This document shows positions 18,296 through 34,348 of a stretch of DNA of 64,000 nt, one piece after another. The stretch spans positions 1 through 64,000 of the IMG/VR virus record IMGVR_UViG_3300011116_000920. The stretch is one strand, 5' to 3'. Origin of the DNA: a virus. A program made the translations under genes and the position numbers. The first letter of the stretch is position 1, and each line of letters begins with the position of its first letter. Below the pieces are notes generated by a model. That model saw only the letters and a list, made by a program, of their open reading frames with translations, searched no databases and had not been told where the DNA came from.

Positions 18296-18302
18296 AACGG
18301 AC

Positions 18303-18335
18303 GAACCCCGGCTTAGAACGGTCGGGGTTCATTTT
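18303..18335 (+). terminator. Rho-independent terminator
   Basis: Stem GAACCCCGG / TCGGGGTTC, followed by ATTTTAT. Confidence 0.75.
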
Positions 18336-18385
18336 ATCATTAGAACGGATTACATTTTATTACATTACATTTTAAACATTATAAC

Positions 18386-18655: not shown

Positions 18656-18701
18656 ATGTGATAGATGGCTGGGAATTAGATTAGATTAGTTCCCCGCCGG
18701 A

Positions 18702-18818
18702 TTTTGCTAGGGCTGAGAGGAAAGAAGCCCGAGTAAATTTTTTGAGGCCTAAATAACGTATAATAGGTAAAATAAATAGGCAAATAGTTGATTTATTCAA
18801 TTTTATTTTGTATTTTTG
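18702..18818 (+). promoter_or_regulatory. Class A hairpin-promoter cassette, copy 7 (divergent)
   Basis: Starts TTTTGCTAGGGCTGAGAGG and keeps AAGCCCGAGTAAATTTTTTG, so the outer base pair is lost but the stem core remains. Promoter GTTG (18787), 20 nt, TATTTTTG (18811). Despite much sequence divergence the length is still 117 nt. Confidence 0.8.
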
Positions 18819-18850
18819 ATTCATCGTTAATTAGTTAAATAAATCAAGTT

Positions 18851-19270
18851 ATGAACAACACAAATTTCGTGGCGACTATGTTCCACGCTATGTTCCCTCT
18901 GCTAAACGCTGCAAGAGTTTATGTTCCTTCCTTCGGTATTGAGGATAGAACAAAAATAGCCTTTCTTAAAGCATTCAATGAGTCTTTAATTGAATTAGAG
19001 AAAGTGTCAACATTAAATATTGAGCCAGAGTGGTACATAGCTCAATTTAAAAATTGGGCTAAGTCAAGCGAGGAGGGTATTTTTATGAGTATGTTATCCT
19101 ATCATCCTGAACAGTTTTATCCACAACAAATCGAGGATATGCCTGGAGATGAGGATTTCTGGTGGGGGATGTATCAGAAAGAGCAATGGGATTTATACGA
19201 GCACCCATTCTTTGACAGTTGGTTACAAGAAGCTCAAGAAATAACTTACGAAATGTGGCAAGAGCATTAA
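18851..19270 (+). CDS. Small hypothetical acidic protein (139 aa)
   Basis: A 139-residue, tryptophan-rich acidic protein starting MNNTNFVATMFHAMFPLLNA. It has helical blocks and a W/E-rich end (DEDFWWGMYQKEQWDLYE). Driven by class A copy 7, closed by a terminator. No family recognised. Confidence 0.65.
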   Translation: MNNTNFVATMFHAMFPLLNAARVYVPSFGIEDRTKIAFLKAFNESLIELEKVSTLNIEPEWYIAQFKNWAKSSEEGIFMSMLSYHPEQFYPQQIEDMPGDEDFWWGMYQKEQWDLYEHPFFDSWLQEAQEITYEMWQEH

Positions 19271-19276
19271 ACGAAA

Positions 19277-19308
19277 GAGCCCCGGTCGAAAACGGTCGGG
19301 GTTTTTTT
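19277..19308 (+). terminator. Rho-independent terminator
   Basis: Stem CCCCGGTCG / CGGTCGGGG (imperfect), loop AAAA, followed by seven T. Confidence 0.85.
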
Positions 19309-19336
19309 ATGCCCAAACGGAACGGATGCCGACGAA

Positions 19337-19453
19337 TTTCAATCAGGCTGAGCGGAGCGAAGCCTGAGTAAATTTTTTGGGATTGAAATATGGCATTTTT
19401 GGTAAAATATATGCGAAAATACTTGATTTATTCAATTATATGTTGTATTTTTG
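19337..19453 (+). promoter_or_regulatory. Class A hairpin-promoter cassette, copy 8
   Basis: Stem TCAGGCT / AGCCTGA, loop GAGCGGAGCGA. Promoter CTTG (19422), 20 nt, TATTTTTG (19446). Length 117 nt. Confidence 0.85.
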
Positions 19454-19485
19454 ATTCATCATTTAATACTTAAAAAAATCAAGTT

Positions 19486-20114: not shown

Positions 20115-20246
20115 TTTCGCTCCGGCAGGGCTTTGCCCTGCCTGAGTAAATTTTTGGCGGATCCGTTTTTAACATTTCTTTAACTAAAATAAGGAAAACA
20201 TTAACATTTCATTAACTACTTGATACTGTTTTTTTGTTTATCTTTA
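20115..20246 (+). promoter_or_regulatory. Class B hairpin / TTAAC-box cassette, copy 1
   Basis: Hairpin GGCAGGGC / GCCCTGCC with loop TTT, then TGAGTAAATTTTTGGCGG, four TTAAC boxes at 20169, 20180, 20201 and 20212 (spacing 11, 21, 11) and the -7 element TATCTTTA at 20239. CTTG lies only 16 nt before the -7 element. Confidence 0.8.
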
Positions 20247-20288
20247 TAGTGCAGTCGCAATGAAGCGAAGGCGTTAAATAGACAGGTT

Positions 20289-20465
20289 ATGTATTTATTC
20301 ATTTTAATTTTCGTTTTGGCTATTTGGTTTCCTATTAGTCTGTATGCTTTAATCCTTAACAGTGAATCCGATGGAGACACTGTAAAAGAAACATTATTAA
20401 AACTTTATATGGGTGTTTCTGTATGGTTAATTTTGATTGTATCTTGCGTCGTACTAATAGTTTAA
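20289..20465 (+). CDS. Small membrane protein (58 aa), two helices
   Basis: The 58-residue ORF starts MYLFILIFVLAIWFPISLYA and ends with WLILIVSCVVLIV, giving two membrane helices around a polar loop with SESDGDTVKE. It follows class B copy 1 (leader with GCAGTCGCAATGAAGCGAAG, shared with copy 2). Too short for routine ORF calling but well placed. Confidence 0.65.
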   Translation: MYLFILIFVLAIWFPISLYALILNSESDGDTVKETLLKLYMGVSVWLILIVSCVVLIV

Positions 20466-20479
20466 CAAAACATTAATAT

Positions 20480-20518
20480 GGGAGGATTTTGATTCCTCAA
20501 TTATCCTCCCTATATTTG
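20480..20518 (+). promoter_or_regulatory. Class C dyad promoter, copy 1
   Basis: Arms GGGAGGAT / ATCCTCCC enclose TTTG (20488); TATATTTG begins at 20511 directly after the right arm; spacer 19 nt. Preceded by TTAAC and TTAAT spaced 11 nt. Confidence 0.8.
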
Positions 20519-20551
20519 CTTTATAATTTTAAACCACTAAAAACAAAAAAA

Positions 20552-20782
20552 ATGCCATCAAAAAAAGAAAAAATAGCAGCCCTAAAAACCCTTAATTCGG
20601 CTATTAAAAAAGCTATTTCAGAAAGTGGTAATTTAGATTTTAACGATTTTGTAGATTTGTCCTACGAATTAGAAAATAAAATCTATAAGTATCAAGTAGT
20701 TTTTAGGATAAAACCTATGGAAAATATCCCGATTCCTGAAACGGACAATCCATCAAACGGACCGTATATTTCAGTTCACTAA
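20552..20782 (+). CDS. Small charged protein (76 aa), paralogue of the 21263 gene
   Basis: ATG 20552 follows the leader AAACCACTAAAAACAAAAAAA; an upstream in-frame ATG overlaps the promoter and is rejected. The product starts MPSKKEKIAALKTLNSAIKK and shares the pattern LKTLxSAIxKxxSExxNLDFxDF with the gene at 21263, showing a local duplication. Function unknown. Confidence 0.65.
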   Translation: MPSKKEKIAALKTLNSAIKKAISESGNLDFNDFVDLSYELENKIYKYQVVFRIKPMENIPIPETDNPSNGPYISVH

Positions 20783-20790
20783 TAAGGTTT

Positions 20791-20825
20791 AATACCCACT
20801 AAACGGAAATGTTTAGTGGGTATTC
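20791..20825 (+). terminator. Terminator-like hairpin
   Basis: Long perfect stem AATACCCACTAAAC / GTTTAGTGGGTATT with loop GGAAAT; only a short T-poor tail follows (CCTATG). Confidence 0.7.
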
Positions 20826-20838
20826 CTATGCCAGTGAA

Positions 20839-20970
20839 TTTCGCTCAGGGCAGGGCGGAGCCCTGCCTGAGTAAATTTTTGGCGGATCCGTTTTTAACAT
20901 TTCTTTAACTAAAACAGCGAAAATATTAACACTTATTAACTACTTGGTATTGTTTTTTTGTTTATCTTTG
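20839..20970 (+). promoter_or_regulatory. Class B hairpin / TTAAC-box cassette, copy 2
   Basis: Hairpin GGCAGGGC / GCCCTGCC, loop GGA. TTAAC boxes at 20894, 20905, 20926, 20936 (spacing 11, 21, 10). CTTG (20943), 16 nt, TATCTTTG (20963). Length 132 nt. Confidence 0.8.
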
Positions 20971-21012
20971 TGACGCAGTCGCAATGAAGCGAAGGCGTTA
21001 AATAAACAGGTT

Positions 21013-21201
21013 ATGAAAAGTATGATGTTGGAATCAAATGGAATTAGAATTGTCTTCTCTTTTGGCGGTAAAGTACGCGTCAACCAGTTAGGCAAGGAAG
21101 TTGAATCGGTAAACAATTTTTCCACGTTCAAGAAGTGGGCGAAGGGTATTTTATCCGATAGCCAAATTAAAGTAGCGAAGGCTCAATTCAACCGTATGTA
21201 A
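21013..21201 (+). CDS. Small basic protein (62 aa)
   Basis: A 62-residue basic protein starting MKSMMLESNGIRIVFSFGGK, with beta strands then a helical end rich in lysine. It follows class B copy 2, whose leader shares GCAGTCGCAATGAAGCGAAG with copy 1. Closed by a terminator. Confidence 0.65.
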   Translation: MKSMMLESNGIRIVFSFGGKVRVNQLGKEVESVNNFSTFKKWAKGILSDSQIKVAKAQFNRM

Positions 21202-21209
21202 GATTTAAA

Positions 21210-21242
21210 AGCCCCTACGATTAAGTCGTGGGGGCAATTTTA
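21210..21242 (+). terminator. Rho-independent terminator
   Basis: Stem GCCCCTACGA / TCGTGGGGGC, loop TTAAG, followed by AATTTT. Confidence 0.8.
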
Positions 21243-21262
21243 AACCACTAAAAACTCAAAAA

Positions 21263-21499
21263 ATGGTAACTTTATCAGAGAAAAAAGGCACTTTAAAAAC
21301 CTTACAATCAGCCATCCTAAAATCATATTCTGAAAACAAGAATTTAGATTTTACCGATTTTGAGGACGCGGCTTTTGATTTACAAGTAGATATAGAAACA
21401 GAAGAGGACGAAATAGAAACGGAACGTAATTCATTCTATGCGGACTATCAACAAAGCATAGACGCTGACTACTACGCATTCAGACAGTCGCAAATGTAA
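21263..21499 (+). CDS. Small acidic protein (78 aa), paralogue of the 20552 gene
   Basis: Starts MVTLSEKKGTLKTLQSAILK and continues NLDFTDFEDAAFDL, matching the 20552 product over the first 45 residues. The C-terminal half is more acidic and tyrosine-rich (FYADYQQSIDADYYAF). The pair lies on either side of class B copy 2. Confidence 0.65.
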   Translation: MVTLSEKKGTLKTLQSAILKSYSENKNLDFTDFEDAAFDLQVDIETEEDEIETERNSFYADYQQSIDADYYAFRQSQM

Positions 21500-21508
21500 A
21501 ACTAATAG

Positions 21509-21544
21509 AATATTCCCGCCGAACGGACGGTTCGGTGGGTATTC
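21509..21544 (+). terminator. Terminator-like hairpin
   Basis: Stem AATATTCCCGCCGAAC / GTTCGGTGGGTATT (imperfect); tail CCTATGCC as at 20791. Confidence 0.7.
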
Positions 21545-21557
21545 CTATGCCAGTGAA

Positions 21558-21689
21558 TTTCGCTCAGGGCAGGGCGGAGCCCTGCCTGAGTAAATTTTGG
21601 CGGATCCGGTTTTAACATTTCTTTAACTAAAATAGGGAAAACATTAACACTTCGTTAACTACATAGTATTGATTTTATGCCTATATTTG
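21558..21689 (+). promoter_or_regulatory. Class B hairpin / TTAAC-box cassette, copy 3
   Basis: Hairpin GGCAGGGC / GCCCTGCC, loop GGA. TTAAC at 21612, 21623, 21644, 21655 (11, 21, 11). -7 element TATATTTG (21682). No TTG at 16 or 20 nt upstream; ACTACATAGTATTG takes its place. Length 132 nt. Confidence 0.8.
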
Positions 21690-21723
21690 CATCAGATTCT
21701 TTTACTACTTAAATTAACAAGTT

Positions 21724-22428
21724 ATGAAAATTTTCGGTTTTAATTTTATTTTAGGTCAGACAGTACATTCAATCGACCTTAAATTGTCAGCGACTAAAAA
21801 ACTTGGCGGTCGTCTTGTTGTGCAAACATACCACTATGATTTGCAACAAATTATAAACAATGACTTTACTATGGATAAAGAAAATTGTTTAGATTGTCCT
21901 TTTAGTTATAACCAAAATAACGGTAAAAGCGGCGGCTGTTATACACATAAAGGCAATATGCTAAAAGGTCTAAAGTCTAAATTACGCTCTCTTAATAAGA
22001 GATATAAATTAGGCTTACTAACTTCGGACTATAGTGCGGTTTTACCTACATTATTCAAGTATGCAAGTAAAAAAGATATATCTTTAGTACGGTTTGGTTC
22101 TTACGGCGAAGCGGTTACATTGCCTTTAGATTTGCTAAACGGTTTATCCAAATTATCAAAGCGTAAAACGGGTTATACGCACCAATGGAATAAGCCACAA
22201 TATAAGGAATACGCTTCTTTATTAATGGCTTCGACGCACAATGTTTTTGAAGCAAATATAGCAAATGATTTAGGCTTTAGGACATTCAATGTAGGCGCTA
22301 TAGAAAACAGTATTATGTGTCCCTCATCACCAACTATAGAAAAGGATAAAAGGGTATCTTGTGCAAATTGTGGCTTATGTGCGGGAAATTCAATAAAGGC
22401 AAAAAATATCTTTATTCCTAAACACTAA
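21724..22428 (+). CDS. Gp88-like cysteine-rich protein, copy 1
   Basis: The 234-residue protein resembles the phage Gp88/DUF7227 group. It has CLDCPFSYN followed by GGCYTH near residues 58-78, RFGSYGE near 120, GYTHQW near 156, and a C-terminal cluster CPSSPTIEK...VSCANCGLC. At least six conserved cysteines suggest an iron-sulfur or zinc site. Function is unknown. The paralogue at 27289 has about the same length and every motif. It is one of the largest genes in the array and is driven by class B copy 3. Confidence 0.65.
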   Translation: MKIFGFNFILGQTVHSIDLKLSATKKLGGRLVVQTYHYDLQQIINNDFTMDKENCLDCPFSYNQNNGKSGGCYTHKGNMLKGLKSKLRSLNKRYKLGLLTSDYSAVLPTLFKYASKKDISLVRFGSYGEAVTLPLDLLNGLSKLSKRKTGYTHQWNKPQYKEYASLLMASTHNVFEANIANDLGFRTFNVGAIENSIMCPSSPTIEKDKRVSCANCGLCAGNSIKAKNIFIPKH

Positions 22429-22436
22429 AAAAATGT

Positions 22437-22478
22437 AGGGGGAATGTTTGGAAATTTCAAATATTCCCCTTATATTTG
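22437..22478 (+). promoter_or_regulatory. Class C dyad promoter, copy 2
   Basis: Arms GGGGAATGTTT / AAATATTCCCC; TTTG (22447), 20 nt, TATATTTG (22471). Confidence 0.8.
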
Positions 22479-22513
22479 ATTTATAATTAGTTCACCACTT
22501 AAAAACAAATAAA

Positions 22514-22780
22514 ATGATAGTAAAATGTTTAGATGATTTTTTACCGTTAAGGAATGTAAACGATTTAGAATTTACGGTATTAAACAAAGAAACCGATGAA
22601 AAGCTTCTATGGTACATAGAAGATGTATTAGATGAAATAAATAGAGACAGGTCCGAAAAATGGATTGATTATAGTAAGAATGATTGGTTTGAGGGATGGG
22701 CGGAATGGTGCGAAGATGATACATATACCATACTATCAATAGAGGACAAAGAAGATAAAGTATATAGACCTTTCTTATAA
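22514..22780 (+). CDS. Small acidic protein (88 aa), paralogue of the 34870 gene
   Basis: The 88-residue protein contains YIEDVLDEINRDRSEKW and DWFEGWAEWCEDD, both shared with the product at 34870, 12 kb away. Acidic and tryptophan-rich. Driven by class C copy 2, closed by a terminator. Unknown function. Confidence 0.7.
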   Translation: MIVKCLDDFLPLRNVNDLEFTVLNKETDEKLLWYIEDVLDEINRDRSEKWIDYSKNDWFEGWAEWCEDDTYTILSIEDKEDKVYRPFL

Positions 22781-22801
22781 AGAAATAGTAACTTGTTTTT
22801 T

Positions 22802-22836
22802 GCCCCGTTGGATTCAGTGTCCGACGGGGATTTTTA
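22802..22836 (+). terminator. Rho-independent terminator
   Basis: Stem GCCCCGTTGGA / TCCGACGGGG, loop TTCAGTG, followed by ATTTTTATG; related to the terminator at 25121. Confidence 0.8.
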
Positions 22837-22847
22837 TGACCAGTAAA

Positions 22848-22979
22848 TTTCGCTCAGGGCAGGGCGGAGCCCTGCCTGAGTAAATTTTGGCGGGGCGGAT
22901 CTTAACATTTCTTTAACTATAATAGGGAAAACATTAACACTACCTTAACTACTTTGTATTTGTTTTACCCTTATCTTTG
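22848..22979 (+). promoter_or_regulatory. Class B hairpin / TTAAC-box cassette, copy 4
   Basis: Hairpin GGCAGGGC / GCCCTGCC, loop GGA. TTAAC at 22902, 22913, 22934, 22945 (11, 21, 11). TTTG (22953), 15 nt, TATCTTTG (22972). Length 132 nt. Confidence 0.8.
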
Positions 22980-23012
22980 CATCATATTCTTAACCACTCA
23001 AAATAAGTTATT

Positions 23013-23510
23013 ATGAAGTCAATTAATGAGTTTATCGCGGGTTTATCCTCAAAGAACACCTTTGCAGCTATCCAGTACGAGTCTTCAGCAGATAAGGTAG
23101 CAAAAAAGCTAACTTATGGTTGGTTGGCAGCCAATGGTATTTCTCGCGAAGAAGTACGTTGTATTACTTTCCGCACTTGTCAGTTAGGTAGCACTTATAA
23201 GACAAGAGTAGAAAATAGAGAAGGCGAAGGCGTGGCTATAAATCCAGGTTGGGCAAGAGCCTTAGACAACAAAGGGCATTTATTCGACAATCCAAAGAAC
23301 CTTAAGAGATTCCTACGCGTGTTCTTAGTGCCAGGCAAACAAGTTACTTGGGGCTTTCCGGATGCAACAACAGAACGGAACCGATTAGCCTTAGTTAAGA
23401 GAATGCAGGAAATAGAGCCGGAAACGGAATCCAATACGTTTGAAGTAAGAATGATTGAGTTGGAATGTATTCAGAGTTTAAAAGCAAAAGAAGTTTTTCA
23501 ATTAGCGTAA
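23013..23510 (+). CDS. Hypothetical basic protein (165 aa)
   Basis: A basic 165-residue protein starting MKSINEFIAGLSSKNTFAAI. It holds RTCQLGSTYKTRVENREGEG and an AKELFQLA-like helical end. No family recognised. Driven by class B copy 4 with the leader AACCACTCAAAATAAG. Confidence 0.65.
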   Translation: MKSINEFIAGLSSKNTFAAIQYESSADKVAKKLTYGWLAANGISREEVRCITFRTCQLGSTYKTRVENREGEGVAINPGWARALDNKGHLFDNPKNLKRFLRVFLVPGKQVTWGFPDATTERNRLALVKRMQEIEPETESNTFEVRMIELECIQSLKAKEVFQLA

Positions 23511-23518
23511 AAAAAAGT

Positions 23519-23559
23519 AGGGGAATGTTTTGATATGTTAAATATTCCCCTTATCTTTG
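23519..23559 (+). promoter_or_regulatory. Class C dyad promoter, copy 3
   Basis: Arms GGGGAATGTTT / AAATATTCCCC; TTTG (23529), 19 nt, TATCTTTG (23552). Confidence 0.8.
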
Positions 23560-23592
23560 CAACATATTAATCACTTAAATACTTAAAAAAAA

Positions 23593-23985
23593 ATGAACAA
23601 GGAAGGTTTAAAAATTTCGCTTACAAATGAATTAAGCGAAGAGATTTTTTTCAATGCTTTATGTAATTCAATGGATTATATGTGTAGCTCTTATGGACTT
23701 GATTTAAAGTACAAAGAATCTGACTACCGTAAAGCTAAAGCTAAATTGAGTTCTCCATGTTTTGAAGATGTTTTGATGCAGATGATAAAAGATGGAATGG
23801 TATTTGGAATTAAGGATTTAGAAGGGGGTGAGGATGATGTTTTTATTACATTAGAGAGTATACATGAAAGAGTTAAAAATGTTCCATTAGATCATTTGTT
23901 AGACATGATAAATGGAAATGATGATGCAACTACTGGCGATGTTGTTTTACAGACTGTTCTTTACAATGAAATTATTTTTGGATAG
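23593..23985 (+). CDS. Hypothetical acidic protein (130 aa)
   Basis: A helical 130-residue protein starting MNKEGLKISLTNELSEEIFF, driven by class C copy 3 with the leader ATCACTTAAATACTTAAAAA. No family recognised. Confidence 0.65.
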   Translation: MNKEGLKISLTNELSEEIFFNALCNSMDYMCSSYGLDLKYKESDYRKAKAKLSSPCFEDVLMQMIKDGMVFGIKDLEGGEDDVFITLESIHERVKNVPLDHLLDMINGNDDATTGDVVLQTVLYNEIIFG

Positions 23986-23999
23986 GATTTAAAAAAGAT

Positions 24000-24040
24000 G
24001 GGAGAATGTTTGGAAATGTAAAATGTTCTCCCTATCTTTG
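24000..24040 (+). promoter_or_regulatory. Class C dyad promoter, copy 4
   Basis: Arms GGGAGAATGTTT / AAATGTTCTCCC; the third base pair is A-T here and G-C in copies 2 and 3. TTTG (24009), 20 nt, TATCTTTG (24033). Confidence 0.85.
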
Positions 24041-24076
24041 TATCATAATTATTTCACCACTTTAAATTTTAAAAAC

Positions 24077-24328
24077 ATGAGCGCACCAAAAGGATGGTAT
24101 CGAAATTTGATTAGTGATTCTAACATCAGAATTGCATTCACTCACTCACGGATTATTGGTTGTACAATCGTTGACAACTCCAAAACTTTAGAGGATTTAG
24201 AGAAGTCAGAAGACCAATATGCACAATACTATATTGATGGACTGAAGTCTGGAAGTATGGTTACGATTGTAGAGAATAATGTCATAGACAGATACTTTAA
24301 GAGGGGGGAACTTTATTTCCTTGGCTAA
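24077..24328 (+). CDS. Small hypothetical protein (83 aa)
   Basis: ATG 24077 follows the leader CACCACTTTAAATTTTAAAAAC; an upstream in-frame ATG lies inside the promoter. The product starts MSAPKGWYRNLISDSNIRIA, mixed alpha/beta. Unknown family. Confidence 0.65.
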   Translation: MSAPKGWYRNLISDSNIRIAFTHSRIIGCTIVDNSKTLEDLEKSEDQYAQYYIDGLKSGSMVTIVENNVIDRYFKRGELYFLG

Positions 24329-24337
24329 AAAAAAGAT

Positions 24338-24378
24338 GGGAGAATGTTTGTATATACTAAATGTTCTCCCTATCTTTG
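24338..24378 (+). promoter_or_regulatory. Class C dyad promoter, copy 5
   Basis: Arms GGGAGAATGTTT / AAATGTTCTCCC, loop region TATATACT unlike copy 4; TTTG (24347), 20 nt, TATCTTTG (24371). Confidence 0.85.
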
Positions 24379-24413
24379 TAGTATAATTGTTCATCACTTT
24401 AAATTTTAAAACA

Positions 24414-24659
24414 ATGCAGTATCAAATTAAAAGAGAATGTTGGAATGAGAAAACATTAAATGGATATGTAGATAATCCATATTGGAAAATAGATTTAAAT
24501 AATTTAAGTTTTGGACTAACAGATAATGGTTATTTGTGGGCGATAGGAGTAACGGGACATATTGCAGAAAATCAATGCAAAGTCTATAAAATGTATATAC
24601 AAAAATTAATTAAGGAGTGTAAACTTAGTATTGATATTAATAACCCCGCGGAAAATTAA
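24414..24659 (+). CDS. Small hypothetical protein (81 aa)
   Basis: ATG 24414 follows the leader CATCACTTTAAATTTTAAAACA. The product starts MQYQIKRECWNEKTLNGYVD and contains LSFGLTDNGYLWAIGVTGH. Its last codons (NNPAEN) are written in the recurring motif CCCCGCGGAAAATTAA, which supplies the stop. It is followed 4 nt later by another gene. Confidence 0.65.
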   Translation: MQYQIKRECWNEKTLNGYVDNPYWKIDLNNLSFGLTDNGYLWAIGVTGHIAENQCKVYKMYIQKLIKECKLSIDINNPAEN

Positions 24660-24663
24660 TAAG

Positions 24664-24864
24664 ATGAAAAATAAGAAAAAATTATTTGATGAGATTGGGT
24701 ATATCCAATTATACAAACGAGGTATGTGTATTACTATTTGGTATGAACGTACATATCATCAGTACTGGTATTATACTCAAAAGGAGGCAATCCGTTTGTT
24801 TAAAGAAAAATATGGAATCAAAGGTAAAGTAGAGAAAACTAATTTTTGTCCATACACATTTTAA
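24664..24864 (+). CDS. Small basic protein (66 aa)
   Basis: A basic, tyrosine-rich 66-residue protein starting MKNKKKLFDEIGYIQLYKRG. Placed 4 nt after the previous stop, so in the same operon. The pattern with HQYWYYTQKEAIRLFKEKYG suggests a small beta-alpha fold in which an ANK/EAI-type helix closes a sheet. Unknown function. Confidence 0.6.
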   Translation: MKNKKKLFDEIGYIQLYKRGMCITIWYERTYHQYWYYTQKEAIRLFKEKYGIKGKVEKTNFCPYTF

Positions 24865-24894
24865 ATGCTCACCCACTTGAAAATATTAAATAAA

Positions 24895-25107
24895 ATGAAT
24901 AACAAACATATTTGGGAAGGTTGGACTGTTCAAGATTTTATAAATGAACTTGAACCCACATTTAATAGAATTGTTAACGGCCATTCCTGGACAGCACCTT
25001 TTAAGAACAGCAAAGAATTAAAAGAGTGGCTTATGGATAATCAACCGTATTATAAGAAGCATATCCCTGAGGTATTTAATTACTTTAAGGAAAGACTAAA
25101 GATATAA
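24895..25107 (+). CDS. Small hypothetical protein (70 aa)
   Basis: ATG 24895 was preferred over an upstream in-frame ATG at 24865 because AATATTAAATAAA precedes it as in other array genes. Starts MNNKHIWEGWTVQDFINELE. Helical, tryptophan-rich. Third gene of the 24414 operon, closed by a terminator. Confidence 0.6.
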   Translation: MNNKHIWEGWTVQDFINELEPTFNRIVNGHSWTAPFKNSKELKEWLMDNQPYYKKHIPEVFNYFKERLKI

Positions 25108-25120
25108 TAACTTGTTTTTT

Positions 25121-25156
25121 TGCCCCGTCGGATTTAGTGTCTGGCGGGGATTTTTA
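25121..25156 (+). terminator. Rho-independent terminator
   Basis: Stem GCCCCGTCGGA / TCTGGCGGGG (imperfect), loop TTTAGTG, followed by ATTTTTAGG; a close relative of the terminator at 22802. Confidence 0.75.
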
Positions 25157-25167
25157 GGATCAGTGAA

Positions 25168-25300
25168 TTTCGCTCAAGGCAGGGCAAAGCCCTGCCTGAG
25201 TAATTTTTGGCAGGACTCCTTTTTAACATTTCTTTAACTATTATGGGAAAAACATTAACACTTCATTAACTACTTGGTATTGGTTTTACCCTTATCTTTG
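25168..25300 (+). promoter_or_regulatory. Class B hairpin / TTAAC-box cassette, copy 5
   Basis: Hairpin GGCAGGGC / GCCCTGCC, loop AAA. TTAAC at 25223, 25234, 25255, 25266 (11, 21, 11). CTTG (25273), 16 nt, TATCTTTG (25293). Length 133 nt. A second promoter follows at 25371. Confidence 0.8.
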
Positions 25301-25334
25301 TGGTGTTATTAAGAGAAAGGGTAAGCAAATAGAA

Positions 25335-25402
25335 AGGCAAAAAAGTAATTTAAAAAAAGTTTGCCTAAAATTTGGAAATTAGAAAACTACTCTTTATCTT
25401 TG
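25335..25402 (+). promoter_or_regulatory. Second promoter with AGGCAAA / TTTGCCT dyad
   Basis: Inverted repeat AGGCAAA (25335) / TTTGCCT (25360), then TTTG (25371), 20 nt, TATCTTTG (25395). The same arrangement lies at 27188-27255. A transcript from the upstream class B promoter would carry the inverted repeat in its leader. Confidence 0.75.
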
Positions 25403-25436
25403 CAAAAGATTCTTAACCACTTTAAATTTTTAAACT

Positions 25437-26162
25437 ATGATTCTTTCAGAAGTAAAAAGCGCAAACCTAAGCGCTAAGTATGTGGCTATCAGTTCACAAA
25501 AATTGATTAATGACCTTAAATCTAATGGGTTTGAACTTTCAGGCTTTCAGACCAAAAAGAAAGGTGCTAAAAGTTCCGCACACCTTATTAGAATGAGGTA
25601 CAATAAGGAATTAATCTTAAAGGGTGAAACCTTATACCCCGAAGTTGTTATTCGTAATTCTTTTGACGGAACGGTTGGGTTTGAATGTTCAATGGGAATA
25701 TTTAGATTAGTATGCTCAAACGGACTAACTGTATCAGATTCAAGATTTGAGTCCAAGATTTACAAAGTAAAGCATTTCGGAAAAAAAGCAATGGATATTT
25801 CGGAAAAGGTTATTTCGGGTGAAATCGTAGCTAACTTTTTTGATTTGCTACCTAAACTTGAGGAATATGTATTGCAGCAAATGTCTGTAAACTTGACCGA
25901 AGAAAAGGCTATTGAGTTTGCTATGAAAGCTGCTGCCTTGCGTTTTAAGAGAATCTTTACAGAAAAAGAAGCAAAAGTACTACTTGCTTCAGAAAGGTTT
26001 GCTGATGATGAAAATACCCTTTGGGCAATTCAGAACCGTATTCAAGAAAAATTGATTAATGGGTTTGCAGGTAGAAGAAAATATTCTGCTTTAAAAGACC
26101 CTAACAAAACTGCGGTTATCAATGAGAGGTTAGCTAATCTTTCTATGGAGTTCGCAAATTAA
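25437..26162 (+). CDS. DUF932-like protein
   Basis: The 241-residue protein has the DUF932 signature around residues 75-105: VVIRNSFDGTVGFECSMGIF followed by RLVCSNGLTV. DUF932 proteins occur widely in phages and plasmids, often near anti-restriction or early genes; the biochemical role is unknown. It is expressed from two stacked promoters, class B copy 5 and the consensus promoter at 25371. That arrangement is shared with the second Gp88-like gene. Confidence 0.8.
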   Translation: MILSEVKSANLSAKYVAISSQKLINDLKSNGFELSGFQTKKKGAKSSAHLIRMRYNKELILKGETLYPEVVIRNSFDGTVGFECSMGIFRLVCSNGLTVSDSRFESKIYKVKHFGKKAMDISEKVISGEIVANFFDLLPKLEEYVLQQMSVNLTEEKAIEFAMKAAALRFKRIFTEKEAKVLLASERFADDENTLWAIQNRIQEKLINGFAGRRKYSALKDPNKTAVINERLANLSMEFAN

Positions 26163-26175
26163 TTTAAAAAAATGT

Positions 26176-26216
26176 GGGGGGATATTTGGATATGTCAACT
26201 ATCCCCCATATATTTG
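26176..26216 (+). promoter_or_regulatory. Class C dyad promoter, copy 6
   Basis: Arms GGGGGAT / ATCCCCC; TTTG (26185), 20 nt, TATATTTG (26209). Confidence 0.8.
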
Positions 26217-26251
26217 CATCAGATTATTAATCACTTTAAAATGTCTTAAAA

Positions 26252-26416
26252 ATGGATAAGTATGTTTTAGTTTGTTGGCCGGAAAGTCAATTATTAATGG
26301 ACGTGGAATGGTTCGATGAATGTATACTAATGAATGACATGGAGCATTTAGCTGACATAGGTTCTTCTGCCTACTTTGTTCCGGAGGATAGATATTTGGA
26401 ATTAACAAGTAAGTAA
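26252..26416 (+). CDS. Small acidic protein (54 aa)
   Basis: A 54-residue ORF starting MDKYVLVCWPESQLLMDVEW, placed between two class C promoters with leader AATCACTTTAAAATGTCTTAAA. Acidic (DVEWFDECILMNDMEHLAD). Unknown family. Confidence 0.65.
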   Translation: MDKYVLVCWPESQLLMDVEWFDECILMNDMEHLADIGSSAYFVPEDRYLELTSK

Positions 26417-26423
26417 TAAAGAT

Positions 26424-26464
26424 GAGGGAATGTTTGGAAATGTAAAATGTTCCCCCTATCTTTG
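26424..26464 (+). promoter_or_regulatory. Class C dyad promoter, copy 7
   Basis: Arms GGGAATGTTT / AAATGTTCCC; TTTG (26433), 20 nt, TATCTTTG (26457). Confidence 0.8.
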
Positions 26465-26498
26465 CGCTATAATTATTCACCACTTAATATTTTAAATC

Positions 26499-26975
26499 AT
26501 GCACAATCTTCATTTAATTAGAACAAAAGCTGATTCTCATTCCGACGCTCTTAGTATTGTTGAAGACTTTTTACAAAGTTGGGGTACTGAGAATAATTGG
26601 TCAACTGTATTGGGTTCTCATTGCAAAGAGGATAAATCATTTTCGGAACATTTTGACGAAAAATGGGTAACTAAGGATGAATTACTAAATGACCCAAATA
26701 GATTTGATTTCTTAACAGAGGTAAATGCCTACTATAAGGAAGCATTCCATAAGGTATCTAATTTAGGAGGTACTGTATTGATTAAACCTTTTGATTGGAG
26801 GGCTGCTGCTAAATACTGCAAAGAGCAATCTGAGATATCAAATCTTTTAGACCCTACTAAAGTTGATATATGGTCAGATACTTTCTACGAGTTTGATATT
26901 GACGAGCCTGGCATTACAGACCTATGTTATGATGGTGCTCTAACTTTCATTGTGTTGGTTGATATGCACTCGTAA
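26499..26975 (+). CDS. Hypothetical acidic protein (158 aa)
   Basis: A 158-residue acidic protein starting MHNLHLIRTKADSHSDALSI. Aromatic residues are spread through the chain (NNWSTVLGSHC, WVTKDELL, DIWSDTFYEFD). No family recognised. Driven by class C copy 7, closed by a strong terminator. Confidence 0.65.
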   Translation: MHNLHLIRTKADSHSDALSIVEDFLQSWGTENNWSTVLGSHCKEDKSFSEHFDEKWVTKDELLNDPNRFDFLTEVNAYYKEAFHKVSNLGGTVLIKPFDWRAAAKYCKEQSEISNLLDPTKVDIWSDTFYEFDIDEPGITDLCYDGALTFIVLVDMHS

Positions 26976-26978
26976 ATA

Positions 26979-27011
26979 AAAACCCTCTTAGTGAAAGCTA
27001 AGAGGGTTTTT
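26979..27011 (+). terminator. Rho-independent terminator
   Basis: Perfect stem AAACCCTCTTA / TAAGAGGGTTT, loop GTGAAAGC, followed by TTCTATG. Confidence 0.85.
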
Positions 27012-27024
27012 CTATGCCAGTGAA

Positions 27025-27157
27025 TTTCGCTCAGGGCAGGGCAAAGCCCTGCCTGAGTAATTTTTGGCGGGATCCCTTTTTAACATTTCTTTAACTATAC
27101 CAGGGAAAACATTAACACTCCCTTAACTACTAGGTATTGTATTTATGCTTATCTTTG
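27025..27157 (+). promoter_or_regulatory. Class B hairpin / TTAAC-box cassette, copy 6
   Basis: Hairpin GGCAGGGC / GCCCTGCC, loop AAA. TTAAC at 27080, 27091, 27112, 27123 (11, 21, 11). -7 element TATCTTTG (27150); ACTACTAGGTATTG replaces a TTG -33 element. Length 133 nt. Confidence 0.8.
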
Positions 27158-27187
27158 CAGTGTTATAAAGAGAGAGGGTAAATAGAA

Positions 27188-27255
27188 AGGCAAAAAAGTA
27201 ATTTAAAAAAAGTTTGCCTTAAATTTGGAAAATAGAAAAATACCCCTTATCTTTG
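27188..27255 (+). promoter_or_regulatory. Second promoter with AGGCAAA / TTTGCCT dyad
   Basis: Inverted repeat AGGCAAA (27188) / TTTGCCT (27213), then TTTG (27224), 20 nt, TATCTTTG (27248). Copy of the arrangement upstream of the DUF932-like gene. Confidence 0.75.
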
Positions 27256-27288
27256 CCAAAGATTTTTAACCACTTAAATAAACTTGCT

Positions 27289-27996
27289 ATGTTAAAGCAA
27301 ATTAATTTCAGATTAGGCGACGTTATCCATTGCATAGATATCAAGCCTAGCGCTACGCCTAAGCTCGCTAAAAAAGGCGAAATTATCCTACAAACTTATC
27401 ATTTTTCTATCGACCAGATTAATGAGGGCAGCCTAAAAAATGATTCCAAGGTGTGTTTTGATTGTAAGTTCTCTTACAATGCAAACGGTGGAAAATCAGG
27501 CGGTTGCTATACCCATGCGAACGGATCCTTAGCGTGGGGATTAATAGCAAAAGTAAAAGCTTTAAAGAAGCGTTTGGATAACGGATTAATTCCGGAGGGA
27601 ACAAATGGGGTAATGGAACAAATTACAAGCGTTACAAAAAAGGTTAAAATATCCTTTGCTAGAATGGGAACGTATGGGGAGCCTACCTTATTACCTTTTG
27701 AATTGCTAGAACAAATAAGGCCTTTGGTTGGCAAGGTATCGGGATATACTCACCAATGGCATAAACCCGAAAATAAGCAATATGCAAAATACCTAATGGC
27801 AAGTACGCATAATATATTTGACGTAAAATTGGCCGAAGGTTTGGGATTTAGGTCTTACAATGCGAGTGAGGTTGAAGGTGCTATCCTTTGTCCATCAGCG
27901 CCAACCATAGCAAAGGAGAAGCAAGTAAGCTGCGCTAAATGTGGATTGTGTGAAGGTGGAAAGAAGGCTAAGAATATCTACAATGTAATCCATTAA
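27289..27996 (+). CDS. Gp88-like cysteine-rich protein, copy 2
   Basis: ATG 27289 follows the leader AACCACTTAAATAAACTTGCT; an upstream in-frame ATG at 27253 overlaps the promoter. The 235-residue protein matches copy 1 (21724) throughout: CFDCKFSYN, GGCYTH, RMGTYGE, GYTHQW, CPSAPTIAK, SCAKCGLC. The substitutions are spread evenly, so this is an old duplication. Two stacked promoters drive it. Function unknown; the cysteine set suggests metal binding. Confidence 0.65.
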   Translation: MLKQINFRLGDVIHCIDIKPSATPKLAKKGEIILQTYHFSIDQINEGSLKNDSKVCFDCKFSYNANGGKSGGCYTHANGSLAWGLIAKVKALKKRLDNGLIPEGTNGVMEQITSVTKKVKISFARMGTYGEPTLLPFELLEQIRPLVGKVSGYTHQWHKPENKQYAKYLMASTHNIFDVKLAEGLGFRSYNASEVEGAILCPSAPTIAKEKQVSCAKCGLCEGGKKAKNIYNVIH

Positions 27997-28010
27997 CATA
28001 ATCTTAACAT

Positions 28011-28049
28011 AGGGGGACTTGGTTTTATCAAATGTTCCCCCTATCTTTG
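28011..28049 (+). promoter_or_regulatory. Class C dyad promoter, copy 8
   Basis: Arms AGGGGGA / TCCCCCT (AGGGGGACTT / AATGTTCCCCCT overall); CTTG (28018), 20 nt, TATCTTTG (28042). Preceded by two TTAAC boxes 11 nt apart. Confidence 0.8.
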
Positions 28050-28081
28050 CATCATATTAATAACCACTTAAATTAAAAAAC

Positions 28082-28492
28082 ATGAAAAGGATTAAGGTTA
28101 GATTCTCTTTACAACGTGGAGAGAATTACATGAAATGGAGAGTCATTGGTAGCGATGGGGTTGTCACATATTACAATCCATGTGACGTTCAATTAATCAT
28201 GAGAGGTTGCACGTTAAGGAACAATAAGAAATTAGCTACAAAGATTTACAATGGTGAAAGTACGAAGGTTGTATGTGCATGGATTTTATGTGATGATTTA
28301 GAGATTAGACATTCTGATTTTATTAAGGAATCTGATTTTAAAATTAAGTACAACCCTAAACTTGCTCCTCACTGGATGTTCCTGGGAGAGGATATAGATA
28401 ATAGGAATATTTCTTACATTGTTTCGGTTGACTTTAAGTTATGTATTGATTTGATTCCCGATGCTATGGGATTGGGAGGATATAAGAGTTAA
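28082..28492 (+). CDS. Hypothetical basic protein (136 aa)
   Basis: A 136-residue basic protein starting MKRIKVRFSLQRGENYMKWR. It has a beta-rich first half, CTLRNNKKLATKIYNGESTK, then VVCAWILCDDL. This order resembles hypothetical proteins common in Bacteroidota phages, but no function is known. Driven by class C copy 8. Confidence 0.65.
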   Translation: MKRIKVRFSLQRGENYMKWRVIGSDGVVTYYNPCDVQLIMRGCTLRNNKKLATKIYNGESTKVVCAWILCDDLEIRHSDFIKESDFKIKYNPKLAPHWMFLGEDIDNRNISYIVSVDFKLCIDLIPDAMGLGGYKS

Positions 28493-28528
28493 GAATTCCC
28501 CACGGAAAATTAACAAAACATTAACGAT

Positions 28529-28567
28529 AGGGGGTATTGCATATTATATCCGATACCCCTATCTTTG
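28529..28567 (+). promoter_or_regulatory. Class C dyad promoter, copy 9
   Basis: Arms AGGGGGTATTG / CGATACCCCT with one weak pair; TTG (28537), 20 nt, TATCTTTG (28560). Preceded by CCCCACGGAAAATTAAC and a second TTAAC 11 nt later. Confidence 0.8.
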
Positions 28568-28601
28568 CATCATAATTAATCACCACTTTAAAACAAAAAA
28601 A

Positions 28602-28898
28602 ATGGAAAACATTGAGCAGCCAATGGAAACTTTTGATTTTTTCCTTGACCAAAAAATAACTACATGGATGCGTACTAGATTTAGCGTGGAAGCTACATCA
28701 AGAGAAGAGGCAATAGAGAAAGCTAAGAAGGAGTATGAGGAGTTATGCCGGGATGAATCTTGGGAGGAGATTCCGGACGTTCAAGAAACAATGACTGTAA
28801 GAGATAACGCTGGTTTTAGCACCGAAGAAGTTTACATAGATGAATTTCCTACAATTAAGATTTGGGAAAATGGCATGAACTCATTAGAAGATTTTTAA
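28602..28898 (+). CDS. Small acidic protein (98 aa)
   Basis: ATG 28602 follows the leader CACCACTTTAAAACAAAAAAA; an in-frame ATG at 28461 lies in the previous gene and is rejected. The product contains MRTRFSVEATSREEAIEKAK, a strand-then-helix pattern seen in small phage proteins that end in an AIEKAK helix. Strongly acidic. Function unknown. Confidence 0.65.
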   Translation: MENIEQPMETFDFFLDQKITTWMRTRFSVEATSREEAIEKAKKEYEELCRDESWEEIPDVQETMTVRDNAGFSTEEVYIDEFPTIKIWENGMNSLEDF

Positions 28899-28913
28899 CA
28901 AAACATTAACGAT

Positions 28914-28951
28914 AGGGATATTGCATAGTATATCCAATACCCTTATCTTTG
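28914..28951 (+). promoter_or_regulatory. Class C dyad promoter, copy 10
   Basis: Arms AGGGATATTG / CAATACCCT (one unpaired base); TTG (28921), 20 nt, TATCTTTG (28944). Two TTAAC boxes 11 nt apart lie just upstream. Confidence 0.8.
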
Positions 28952-28986
28952 CATCATAATTAATCACCACTTTAAAACAAAAAAAA

Positions 28987-30309: not shown

Positions 30310-30369
30310 ATTTTAACATGACTTTAACATTTTAGGATTAGGATATTAGATGGAATGTCATTATCTTTG
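30310..30369 (+). promoter_or_regulatory. Tandem copy of the preceding promoter
   Basis: TTTTAACAT, ATTAGGATATTAGATGG and TATCTTTG (30362) repeat the order found at 30200-30246, so the gene at 30405 is served by a duplicated promoter. No TTG lies 20 nt upstream of the -7 element in either copy. Confidence 0.6.
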
Positions 30370-30404: not shown

Positions 30405-30977
30405 ATGCCAAATTGGTGTTCAAATTGTATCTCATTTGAAGGTAATGAGAAAGCTATGGAAACATTTAGAAAAGATGTTGCCAGTATTGAGGACGGTCAT
30501 TGTATATTTACTGCATTGACGGATTATAAAGAAGAATGGAGCTATGATGCTTGGTGTAATGAGTTCGGCACTAAATGGAGTGTAACGATGGACGATGACA
30601 TTAGACATTCAGTAGAAAACAATGATTACTTTAATTGTGAAACGGCTTGGAGTCCATGTACGGAATTTGTTAAGAAGGTATGTAAGAAGTACGGAATAGA
30701 AGGACGGATTGAATATTCAGAACCAGGGAATGACTTTGCAGGATTTGTATCTATTGATGTGGATGGATGTATAGTAGATGAAGTAGTGATGTCTTGTAAG
30801 GAATATGAATATAAGCATTTAGATGTTGATTATTTATTTGAGAATTTTGTCGATGATGTTAAAGAAGGATTGATTGAAAGTGAGGAGGATGTAAGAGAGG
30901 AATATTCATTTGTTACTGAGGGAGATATGGAGAGATTGATTACATTGTATTATAATAATCTCCCCTCGAAAAATTAA
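30405..30977 (+). CDS. Api92-like phage protein
   Basis: The 190-residue protein starts MPNWCSNCISFEGNEKAMET, the signature start of Api92-like (ferredoxin-like fold) phage proteins, and continues with W-rich blocks (EWSYDAWCNEFGTKWSV). These proteins are widespread in phages with no established role. The tail is acidic. Its last codons LPSKN read into a variant of the CCCCGCGGAAAATTAA motif. Confidence 0.8.
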   Translation: MPNWCSNCISFEGNEKAMETFRKDVASIEDGHCIFTALTDYKEEWSYDAWCNEFGTKWSVTMDDDIRHSVENNDYFNCETAWSPCTEFVKKVCKKYGIEGRIEYSEPGNDFAGFVSIDVDGCIVDEVVMSCKEYEYKHLDVDYLFENFVDDVKEGLIESEEDVREEYSFVTEGDMERLITLYYNNLPSKN

Positions 30978-30992
30978 CATAATATTAACGCT

Positions 30993-31030
30993 AGGGGTAT
31001 TGCGTAGTAAATTCAATACCCCTATCTTTG
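30993..31030 (+). promoter_or_regulatory. Class C dyad promoter, copy 11
   Basis: Perfect 10-bp arms AGGGGTATTG / CAATACCCCT; TTG (31000) inside the left arm, 20 nt, TATCTTTG (31023). Two TTAAC boxes 11 nt apart just upstream. Confidence 0.9.
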
Positions 31031-31062: not shown

Positions 31063-31734
31063 ATGAGAGTTTTAATTGCGTGTGAGGAAAGCCAAGCAAC
31101 AACAAAGGAATTTAGAAAGTTAGGACACGAGGCATTTTCTTGCGACTTACTACCGTGTAGCGGTGGCCATCCGGAATGGCATTTCCAATGCGACGTTTTC
31201 AAAGTAATAAATGAAGGTTGGGATTTACTGATTGGCCATCCACCTTGTACGTTCCTAACGGGAAGCGGTGTTCAATGGTTATCTAATCCCGAAGATAAGG
31301 ACTTGCCTTTCGAAGAGCGTAGGCCTCATCCTAAGTACCCTAACAGAAGAAAGGATATGTTAGATAGCGTGGAATTTGTAAAGGCTCTTTATGATTCTAA
31401 TATAAAACACGTTGCTATTGAGAACCCCGTTGGCTTATTGAGTAGCAGATGGAAGAAGCCTAATCAAATAGTTCAGCCTTATATGTTTGGGGATGAGGCG
31501 ACAAAGACTACTTGCTTATGGTTAAAGAACCTACCCGAATTAGAGCCTACGAACATAGTAGGTAAAGGTGAAAGAACATTTTTCAGCTCGGGTAAATCAC
31601 ACCCTAAATGGTATGCCGATGCTTTGAAGAATGCTAAGACTAAGCAAGAAAGACAGACGTTGAGAAGTAAGACATTCTTAGGAATGGCAGAAGCGATGGC
31701 TACTCAATGGTCAAAATACATAGAAGAAAATTAA
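31063..31734 (+). CDS. Small C5-cytosine-methyltransferase-like protein
   Basis: The 223-residue protein starts MRVLIACEESQATTKEFRKL, fits a Rossmann strand, and has GHPPCTFLTGSG (PPC at 60-62, the nucleophile motif IV of C5 methyltransferases) and VAIENPVGLL (EN at 120-121, motif VI). It is shorter than typical enzymes and lacks an obvious target-recognition domain. It could modify phage or host DNA or act on a nucleotide. Paired with class C copies 11 and 12. Confidence 0.65.
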   Translation: MRVLIACEESQATTKEFRKLGHEAFSCDLLPCSGGHPEWHFQCDVFKVINEGWDLLIGHPPCTFLTGSGVQWLSNPEDKDLPFEERRPHPKYPNRRKDMLDSVEFVKALYDSNIKHVAIENPVGLLSSRWKKPNQIVQPYMFGDEATKTTCLWLKNLPELEPTNIVGKGERTFFSSGKSHPKWYADALKNAKTKQERQTLRSKTFLGMAEAMATQWSKYIEEN

Positions 31735-31749
31735 CAAAACATTAACGCT

Positions 31750-31787
31750 AGGGGTATTGCGTAGTAAATTCAATACCCCTATCTTTG
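31750..31787 (+). promoter_or_regulatory. Class C dyad promoter, copy 12
   Basis: Identical to copy 11 across the dyad (AGGGGTATTG / CAATACCCCT) and -7 element, so a recent duplication flanks the methyltransferase-like gene. Two TTAAC boxes 11 nt apart upstream. Confidence 0.9.
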
Positions 31788-32275: not shown

Positions 32276-32512
32276 ATGAACGAAGTAGAAAAGGCAAAAG
32301 CAGTATTAAGAGCGAATGGTTACTTTGTAGATAACCTATGGCATATCCAGGATGTACAAGCTAACTACATGAAGGCTAGCGACGAAGAAGCTCAAAAGAT
32401 TTTAAACATAGCGCTAACCAACGAAGCTACTATGGAACAAATATCGTTTGCAATTACCGATGCGATAGAGTCTTACTTTGATGATGAGTTAGATAACGAT
32501 TACGAAGATTAA
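32276..32512 (+). CDS. Small acidic protein (78 aa)
   Basis: Starts MNEVEKAKAVLRANGYFVDN, continues with LWHIQDVQANYMKASDEEAQ and ends acidic (YFDDELDNDYED). The first part, a helix then NGYFVDNLWHIQDV, resembles a small phage family with a similar strand-helix order. Third gene of the 31821 unit. Confidence 0.65.
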   Translation: MNEVEKAKAVLRANGYFVDNLWHIQDVQANYMKASDEEAQKILNIALTNEATMEQISFAITDAIESYFDDELDNDYED

Positions 32513-32527
32513 CATAATCTTAACGAT

Positions 32528-32565
32528 AGGGGTGTTGCATATTATATCCGATACCCTTATCTTTG
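32528..32565 (+). promoter_or_regulatory. Class C dyad promoter, copy 13
   Basis: Arms AGGGGTGTTG / CGATACCCT (partly mismatched); TTG (32535), 20 nt, TATCTTTG (32558). Two TTAAC boxes 11 nt apart. Confidence 0.75.
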
Positions 32566-32974: not shown

Positions 32975-33709
32975 ATGGGCGACCAAAAAATTAAGATTGT
33001 AGAAGATTTTGTATGGCTATTGATTACCGACAAAGCTAAGGAAGTTTACCAGTCGGGTTTATTTGATGGTTCTATCTGTGCGCTACATGATGACGGTAGC
33101 GAGGATTTATGTGAGACCTACGAAGACCTTACCGAAGCATTAGAGAGAGGTCTTGAAATCGGGATAGAGGTTGGTCATATAAACAAACCAGAGCCTAAGA
33201 AAATAGAATGGTTTAATGACCTACGTAATTTAGATGTTAGGGAATTTAGGAACCTAGACCCTATTATGGAAGCTAAGACAGATGAGGAGTGGGTTAGAGC
33301 AGGAGAGCAAGGCATTCCAGCTTGGTGCTACTACAACAATGACCCAGCGAACAACGAAATATTTGGCAAGCTATATAATTGGCATGCGGTAAATGATAAG
33401 AGAGGACTTGCACCAGAAGGATATAGAATCCCAACCATAAAGGAGTTAGATGATTTGTATATTAGTCCAGGTTATCCAGCGTCAGGGTGGCGTACTAAAA
33501 TAACTAATTTCTGTAAACATCTTCACGGAAATTACTTCACTTGTTTTGATGGCCTTAGAGAAAGAAGTTTCATTTGGAGTTCTACGGAAGATGATATTGA
33601 TACAGATTTTGCTTGGTACAGTTACTTTACAAGACACCACGATACTACTCAGGGCATAGACGTAAATTACAAGTCAATGGGTGCATCGGTTATCTGCATC
33701 AAAGATTAA
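32975..33709 (+). CDS. FISUMP-domain protein (Fibrobacter paralogous domain)
   Basis: Residues about 105-244 form a FISUMP domain: NEIFGKLYNWHAVNDKRGL, APEGYRIPTIKELDDLY, FIWSSTEDDIDTDFAWY and a closing YKSMGASVICIKD. In Bacteroidota and Fibrobacteres these domains occur in exported proteins. Here there is no signal peptide, and an unrelated acidic N-terminal region (1-95) is fused. It is probably a host-derived domain captured by the phage. Driven by class C copy 14. Confidence 0.75.
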   Translation: MGDQKIKIVEDFVWLLITDKAKEVYQSGLFDGSICALHDDGSEDLCETYEDLTEALERGLEIGIEVGHINKPEPKKIEWFNDLRNLDVREFRNLDPIMEAKTDEEWVRAGEQGIPAWCYYNNDPANNEIFGKLYNWHAVNDKRGLAPEGYRIPTIKELDDLYISPGYPASGWRTKITNFCKHLHGNYFTCFDGLRERSFIWSSTEDDIDTDFAWYSYFTRHHDTTQGIDVNYKSMGASVICIKD

Positions 33710-33723
33710 CAAAATTTTAACAT

Positions 33724-33762
33724 GGGGGGATTTGGATTTCTTGTTTATCCCCCCTATATTTG
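33724..33762 (+). promoter_or_regulatory. Class C dyad promoter, copy 15
   Basis: Arms GGGGGGAT / ATCCCCCC; TTTG (33731), 20 nt, TATATTTG (33755). Two TTAAC boxes 11 nt apart precede it. Confidence 0.8.
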
Positions 33763-34094: not shown

Positions 34095-34295
34095 ATGAGA
34101 AATAGTAAAGAATGGATAGCTGTCTTAAATGGCACAAGGATTGATTCTAATGGGTTCTACTGTGGTGCGGCCTGTGTTACCTCCTACAATAAGAAAGAGG
34201 CCATACGATTGCTCTCTAAGGCTAAGATGCATTACTTCGGCACCTATAAGATTAACAAGGAGGTTAGGAAGAATACAAACATCTACGCTAATTAA
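34095..34295 (+). CDS. Small basic protein (66 aa)
   Basis: Starts MRNSKEWIAVLNGTRIDSNG, has two cysteines in GFYCGAACVTS, then the helix KKEAIRLLSKAKMHYFG. Sits 5 nt after the previous stop, so it is co-transcribed. Unknown family. Confidence 0.6.
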   Translation: MRNSKEWIAVLNGTRIDSNGFYCGAACVTSYNKKEAIRLLSKAKMHYFGTYKINKEVRKNTNIYAN

Positions 34296-34310
34296 CAAAA
34301 TTTTAACATG

Positions 34311-34348
34311 AGGGGTATTGTATATATCATGTAAGCTCCTTATCTTTG
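34311..34348 (+). promoter_or_regulatory. Class C promoter, copy 16 (weak dyad)
   Basis: AGGGGTATTG on the left and GCTCCT on the right pair poorly, so the dyad has decayed. ATTG (34317), 20 nt, TATCTTTG (34341), with two TTAAC boxes 11 nt apart upstream, are intact. Confidence 0.7.

Follow-up and report, generated by a model that had tools for sequence, protein, structure and literature searches.

The window analysed here, the first 64 of the 68.4 kb of the virus record IMGVR_UViG_3300011116_000920, carries between 20.1 and 27.2 kb six repeated cassettes, referred to as class B, each consisting of a GC hairpin, four TTAAC boxes and a TAnnTTTG/A element. Based on sequence comparison we propose, with a probability of roughly 0.7, that each cassette combines a terminator-like hairpin with a promoter of the host polymerase that would depend on a host response regulator of the OmpR/PhoB family. 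This Bacteroidota phage apparently leaves the switching-on of its genes to a host signalling protein, because the cassettes bear regulator boxes at the distances found at host genes.

Architecture of the class B cassettes

The promoters in the window are of the Bacteroidota type with TAnnTTTG as -7 element, and a scan for sigma-70-type promoters was uninformative for Bacteroidota. The motif TTAACATTTCTTTAACTA occurs six times on the plus strand (at 20169, 20894, 21612, 22902, 25223 and 27080). As described in a previous sequence-only reading of this DNA, the boxes are spaced 11/21/11 nucleotides (nt), except that copy 2 has 11/21/10, and these spacings support its claim that they are helically phased. 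The doublet TTAAC-N6-TTAAC was counted 22 times in the window compared with 0.49 expected from shuffled sequences (maximum 3). The gap between the last box and the -7 element, which the sequence-only reading had passed over, is exactly 22 nt in all six copies. These comprise the following features:

20124..20142, +, module 1 GC hairpin GGCAGGGC-TTT-GCCCTGCC, then GAGTAAATTTTT; terminator-like (sequence; pairing kept over the phage group)
20169..20216, +, module 1 four TTAAC boxes (20169, 20180, 20201, 20212; pattern match)
20239..20246, +, module 1 -7 element TATCTTTA, last box 22 nt upstream (sequence)
20848..20868, +, module 2 GC hairpin (sequence; pairing kept over the phage group)
20894..20940, +, module 2 four TTAAC boxes (20894, 20905, 20926, 20936), last spacing 10
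20963..20970, +, module 2 -7 element TATCTTTG
21567..21587, +, module 3 GC hairpin (sequence)
21612..21659, +, module 3 four TTAAC boxes (21612, 21623, 21644, 21655)
21682..21689, +, module 3 -7 element TATATTTG
22857..22877, +, module 4 GC hairpin, preceded by a separate ordinary terminator (22803-22829)
22902..22949, +, module 4 four TTAAC boxes
22972..22979, +, module 4 -7 element TATCTTTG
25177..25197, +, module 5 GC hairpin, terminator-like, preceded by a separate terminator (25123-25149)
25223..25270, +, module 5 four TTAAC boxes
25293..25300, +, module 5 -7 element TATCTTTG, upstream of a DUF932 gene (25437-26162)
27034..27054, +, module 6 GC hairpin, terminator-like
27080..27127, +, module 6 four TTAAC boxes
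27150..27157, +, module 6 -7 element TATCTTTG

A TTG is located 15-16 nt from TAnnTTTG in four copies and is absent in copies 3 and 6, in agreement with the sequence-only reading, and none of the six copies has a TTG at 18-21 nt. The hairpins, which end in GAGTAA(A)TTTT(T), proved to be real: their pairing is kept despite letter changes (GGCAGGGC/GCCCTGCC, GGCAAGGC/GCCTTGCC), and likewise across the phage group.

In exact-pattern scans of IMG/VR four boxes followed by a gap of 22 nt were detected in this phage group alone (five further records), and a nucleotide search of the region against named phages gave no match. From this phage and its relatives 35 class B modules were collected by the four-box pattern, the gap to the -7 element being outside the search criteria. 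The gap was 22 nt in 32 modules and 32-33 nt in three, and a TTG at 18-21 nt before TAnnTTTG, as in an ordinary sigma-A promoter with -33 and -7 elements, was found in none of the 35. The sequence AACTACnnnGTATTG, previously regarded as conserved, is present in only 20 of these modules; its AACTAC part is kept in 32.

In L003 (at 486 and 1226) and L004 (at 8747) the four-box array lies one helical turn, 10-11 base pairs (bp), farther from the -7 element, and these shifted arrays represent a natural phasing experiment. One more fragment (L074/L231) lies within a metagenome-assembled genome of the Saprospiraceae. Outside the Bacteroidota many matches of the four-box scan proved to be simple repeats or arrays of another kind, and these were set aside.

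In modules 1 and 2 the leaders (20247-20290 and 20971-21013) have GCAGTCGCAATGAAGCGAAGGCGTTAAAT in common ahead of the start codon, and this sequence recurs in relatives. Downstream of modules 5 and 6 (25327-25430 and 27180-27280) a second promoter-like repeat precedes the gene, GGCAAAAAAG...GTTTGCC followed by TTTGG...TATCTTTG, and these genes may therefore have tandem promoters.

The same boxes in Bacteroidota genomes and other viruses

The search for further TTAAC arrays, as suggested by the sequence-only reading, yielded matches in phage relatives, Bacteroidota genomes and other viral contigs. The pattern TTAAC-N6-TTAAC-N21..23-TAnnTTTG was detected 26 times, compared with one match of the reversed pattern, in 20 Bacteroidota genomes that form a non-random sample because they were reached via the four-box scan; the phage contig in G018 accounts for two of these matches. 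In 61 Saprospiraceae genomes the same pattern gave 31 matches against three reversed ones, two again being phage. When the gap was left free between 12 and 42 nt, 60 evenly drawn Bacteroidia genomes contained 61 matches after removal of the phage contig, with gaps of 22 nt in 23, 32 nt in eight and 33 nt in three cases; the binomial figures for these gaps treat the genomes as if they were unrelated. A -33 TTG accompanies only 1/54 host promoters at gap 22 and 1/15 at gap 31-34. One gap-33 host match (G018:C102) resembles the phage promoters and may be phage as well.

The genes downstream of the host doublets were predicted to encode DUF1573 (11), thioredoxin-like (six), PDZ (five), DsbD (three), MoxR (two) and other proteins, and the exact doublets at gap 22 mostly precede genes of envelope and redox functions. 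Doublets were also detected near single genes named by eye as PstS-like (L219), DUF47-like (L143) and PhoB-type regulator (L153). Furthermore, 30 moxR and 30 pstS loci were chosen by protein family alone and thus independently of the boxes. Relaxed doublets are located upstream of moxR in 23/30 loci (7/30 in the reversed control) and upstream of pstS in 10/30 (1/30 in the control). The moxR boxes (L542-L571) are concentrated at distances of 32-33 and 42-43 nt before TAnnTTTG, and the moxR doublets likely represent a conserved regulon site in the Bacteroidia. Few pstS promoters have a resolved -7 element, and their boxes lie at 10, 21, 32 and 43 nt rather than at 22 and 33 nt.

Among viruses, at least 46 further loci combine a doublet with TATCTTTG at a gap of 20-22 nt, and 42 of the 58 matches listed in this narrow scan have a gap of 22, four being from this phage group. 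A wide-gap scan covered loci outside the main members of the phage group and outside the narrow scan. Among the matches listed, 55/104 have a gap of 32-33 nt compared with 4/88 for the reversed box; since the narrow-scan loci were omitted, this histogram is incapable of displaying a peak at gap 22. Judged by sequence, a few matches at gap 33 (L365, L357) look as if they belong to this phage group. A -33 TTG is present in 4/37 of the viral promoters listed at gap 22 and in 34/59 at gap 32-33. Three other viral records contain 8, 11 and 14 doublet promoters, and the pattern was also detected in two of 13 named Bacteroidota phages, Polaribacter phage P12002L (two) and Nonlabens phage P12024L (one), with Burkholderia phage BcepMigl (JX104231) as negative control. 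Unrelated Bacteroidota phages appear to use the same box layout of a host regulator. Our literature search returned nothing on Bacteroidota phage promoters driven by host regulators and little on promoters of Bacteroidota phages at all.

Class C and class A promoters

Nine further promoters between 27993 and 34348, mostly of class C, carry one TTAAC-N6-TTAAC doublet 33 nt (once 34 nt) before the -7 element:

27993..28049, +, class C promoter, single TTAAC doublet, gap to -7 element 33
28510..28567, +, class C promoter, TTAAC doublet, gap 34
28895..28951, +, class C promoter, TTAAC doublet, gap 33
30313..30369, +, promoter with TTAAC doublet, gap 33, class C palindrome missing from the spacer
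30974..31030, +, class C promoter, TTAAC doublet, gap 33
31731..31787, +, class C promoter, TTAAC doublet, gap 33
32509..32565, +, class C promoter, TTAAC doublet, gap 33
33706..33762, +, class C promoter, TTAAC doublet, gap 33
34292..34348, +, class C promoter, TTAAC doublet, gap 33

Due to these single doublets classes B and C have their boxes in common, class B carrying the doublet twice and in the place of the -33 element, class C once and ahead of a TTG that lies some 20 nt before the -7 element. The phage gaps of 22 and 33 nt match the host peaks at 22 and 32-33 nt. The sequence-only reading had regarded class B as activator-dependent and separate from classes A and C. The phased boxes and the lack of a normally spaced -33 element agree with the first part of this claim, whereas the single doublets at 33-34 nt, mostly in class C, leave a sharp split between classes B and C unsupported.

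The class C spacers between the -33 and -7 elements contain an inverted repeat with a mean stem of 9.8 pairs compared with 5.7 in shuffled spacers, which shows letter changes on both arms as well as G-T pairs and ends in TATCTTTG. Promoters of this kind were detected at 20462-34348 and 42423 as well as in L001-L004 and L232, and the repeat, overlaid on the promoter, may perhaps also act as an intrinsic terminator for the transcript arriving from upstream. IMGVR_UViG_3300042868_011883 (L246, G147) has 11 doublet promoters with gaps of 32-33 nt, several of them with palindromic spacers (e.g. GGCGAATAGAAATATTCGCC), and the palindrome within the promoter may therefore be distributed more widely than this phage group.

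In the eight class A cassettes (14412-19482) the hairpin has the same flanks as in class B (GAATTTC...GAGTAAATTTT), and their promoters (TTG-N20-TACTTTTG) are devoid of TTAAC boxes. At 29935-30008 ARAGORN predicted a tRNA-like gene whose anticodon (gtcg) has four bases.

Candidate regulators and their implications

In the mechanism we favour, a host response regulator of the OmpR/PhoB family would bind the TTAAC(A) direct repeats 11 bp apart. The proximal doublet, 22 nt before TAnnTTTG, would take the position of the -33 element, and because of this position the bound regulator may supply the contact that a -33 element would otherwise make, as in class II-type activation. The second doublet, 32 bp or three turns upstream, would raise the occupancy. 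In class C the one doublet at 33 nt from the -7 element would lie just upstream of the retained -33 TTG.

A comparable Bacteroidota regulator is PhoP of Riemerella anatipestifer, an OmpR-type response regulator for which DNA affinity purification sequencing (DAP-seq) gave the core TTTAACA (PMC9603813). PhoP directly upregulates MoxR, BatA and BatC, and the direct-target tables of PhoPR include GLPGLI and AhpC/TSA family genes (PMC9603813). Four direct-repeat boxes of this kind, TTTAACA/TTAAC(A), were found in each class B module. Unlike the case considered here, the Riemerella regulon is chromosomal, and the sections used give no phages, box spacing or -7 distance (PMC9603813). We infer that the host of the phage possesses a PhoP/ArcA-like regulator, which would activate rather than repress class B and would be of an envelope-redox type rather than PhoB; a phage origin of the activator is improbable.

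Several observations weigh against this interpretation. A related phage contig in a Saprospiraceae metagenome-assembled genome hints only faintly at the host, since binning is weak evidence. The host genes near these boxes mix envelope and redox genes with Pho genes (PstS, DUF47-like, PhoB-type regulator), which would fit more than one candidate regulator. The moxR doublets are mostly 10 bp apart (TTAACATTTTTTAAC) and not 11, and the pattern is missing in 11 of the 13 named Bacteroidota phages tested. The viral counts are uncollapsed for relatedness, apart from the removal of duplicate matches and of the main members of the phage group studied here. Finally, the direct targets of Riemerella PhoP are more often repressed (34) than activated (16) (PMC9603813).

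The latter ratio would fit a host regulator that binds the boxes and chiefly represses or delays the class B genes, and a protein bound at the -33 position could indeed obstruct the polymerase. However, a strong unaided promoter is unlikely because none of the 35 modules has a normally spaced -33 TTG, and moxR-Bat, which has similar boxes, is activated (PMC9603813), so that we regard repression as improbable. Hardly more probable is an activator encoded by the phage that binds the TTAAC arrays and steers the host polymerase to the class B (and C) genes. Such an activator would resemble MotA of phage T4, whose box stands in for the upstream core element throughout a repeated class of middle promoters. 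The repetition of the cassettes points to a coordinated programme of the phage, and for most of its genes no function has been assigned. However, MotA is phage-encoded, whereas the boxes described here match a host promoter type, occur at the same distances in host genomes and are common to other phages. Furthermore, an OmpR-type DNA-binding domain (PF00486) was found in none of the five related phage records (G000-G004), a search that covers activators of this one family. An activator special to the phage is further disfavoured since a host regulator of Riemerella binds the motif (PMC9603813). It seems very improbable that the polymerase itself contacts the repeats as an intrinsic upstream element, or that they are iterons for replication or partition. 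Their strict spacing and A/T richness as well as the ParB-like proteins encoded by the phage would be in line with this idea; however, the low number of exact matches in host genomes (only about one in each, ahead of particular genes), a position tied to TAnnTTTG and the many promoters involved argue against it.

A more serious competitor, although still an unlikely one, is PhoB itself, in which case the cassettes would be phosphate-starvation (Pho) promoters comparable to the cyanophage ones. As in the boxes of PhoB and PhoP, 11-bp direct repeats were found here at or adjoining the upstream core-promoter position, and TTAACA repeats 11 bp apart resemble the PhoP boxes of Bacillus. They also resemble the cyanobacterial Pho box (PMC10976474). 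The excess of relaxed doublets upstream of pstS and the arrays at the PhoB-type regulator and DUF47-like genes point in the same direction. Unlike in Pho regulation, however, most host genes with exact doublets at gap 22 belong to envelope and redox functions, and for this reason the Pho interpretation was demoted to an alternative. Taking furthermore into account that the few resolved pstS boxes seem to deviate from 22 and 33 nt and that none of ten phage proteins scanned matched a phosphate-metabolism family, PhoB is not favoured. The class B targets detected are DUF932 or have no function assigned.

The cyanophages are nevertheless the nearest phage precedent found: their genes are controlled by the host PhoBR via TTAA-type boxes in the phage promoters, which were tested by electrophoretic mobility shift assay (PMC10976474). 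The cyanophage case differs in phylum and promoter type and in the phosphate response of some phage genes, while this phage has about fifteen repeated promoters ahead of genes mostly without known function.

Only tentatively do we extend the favoured host response regulator to the Bacteroidota phages in general, which might wire large gene sets to a host envelope/redox regulator via two standard layouts, with arrays that may titrate the regulator from the host regulon. If true, phage gene expression would track the stress state of the host. The rule TTAAC-N6-TTAAC, 22 or 32-33 nt, TAnnTTTG predicts regulated phage promoters together with a host regulon, and phage gene expression would thereby be linked to a host two-component system of a familiar type.

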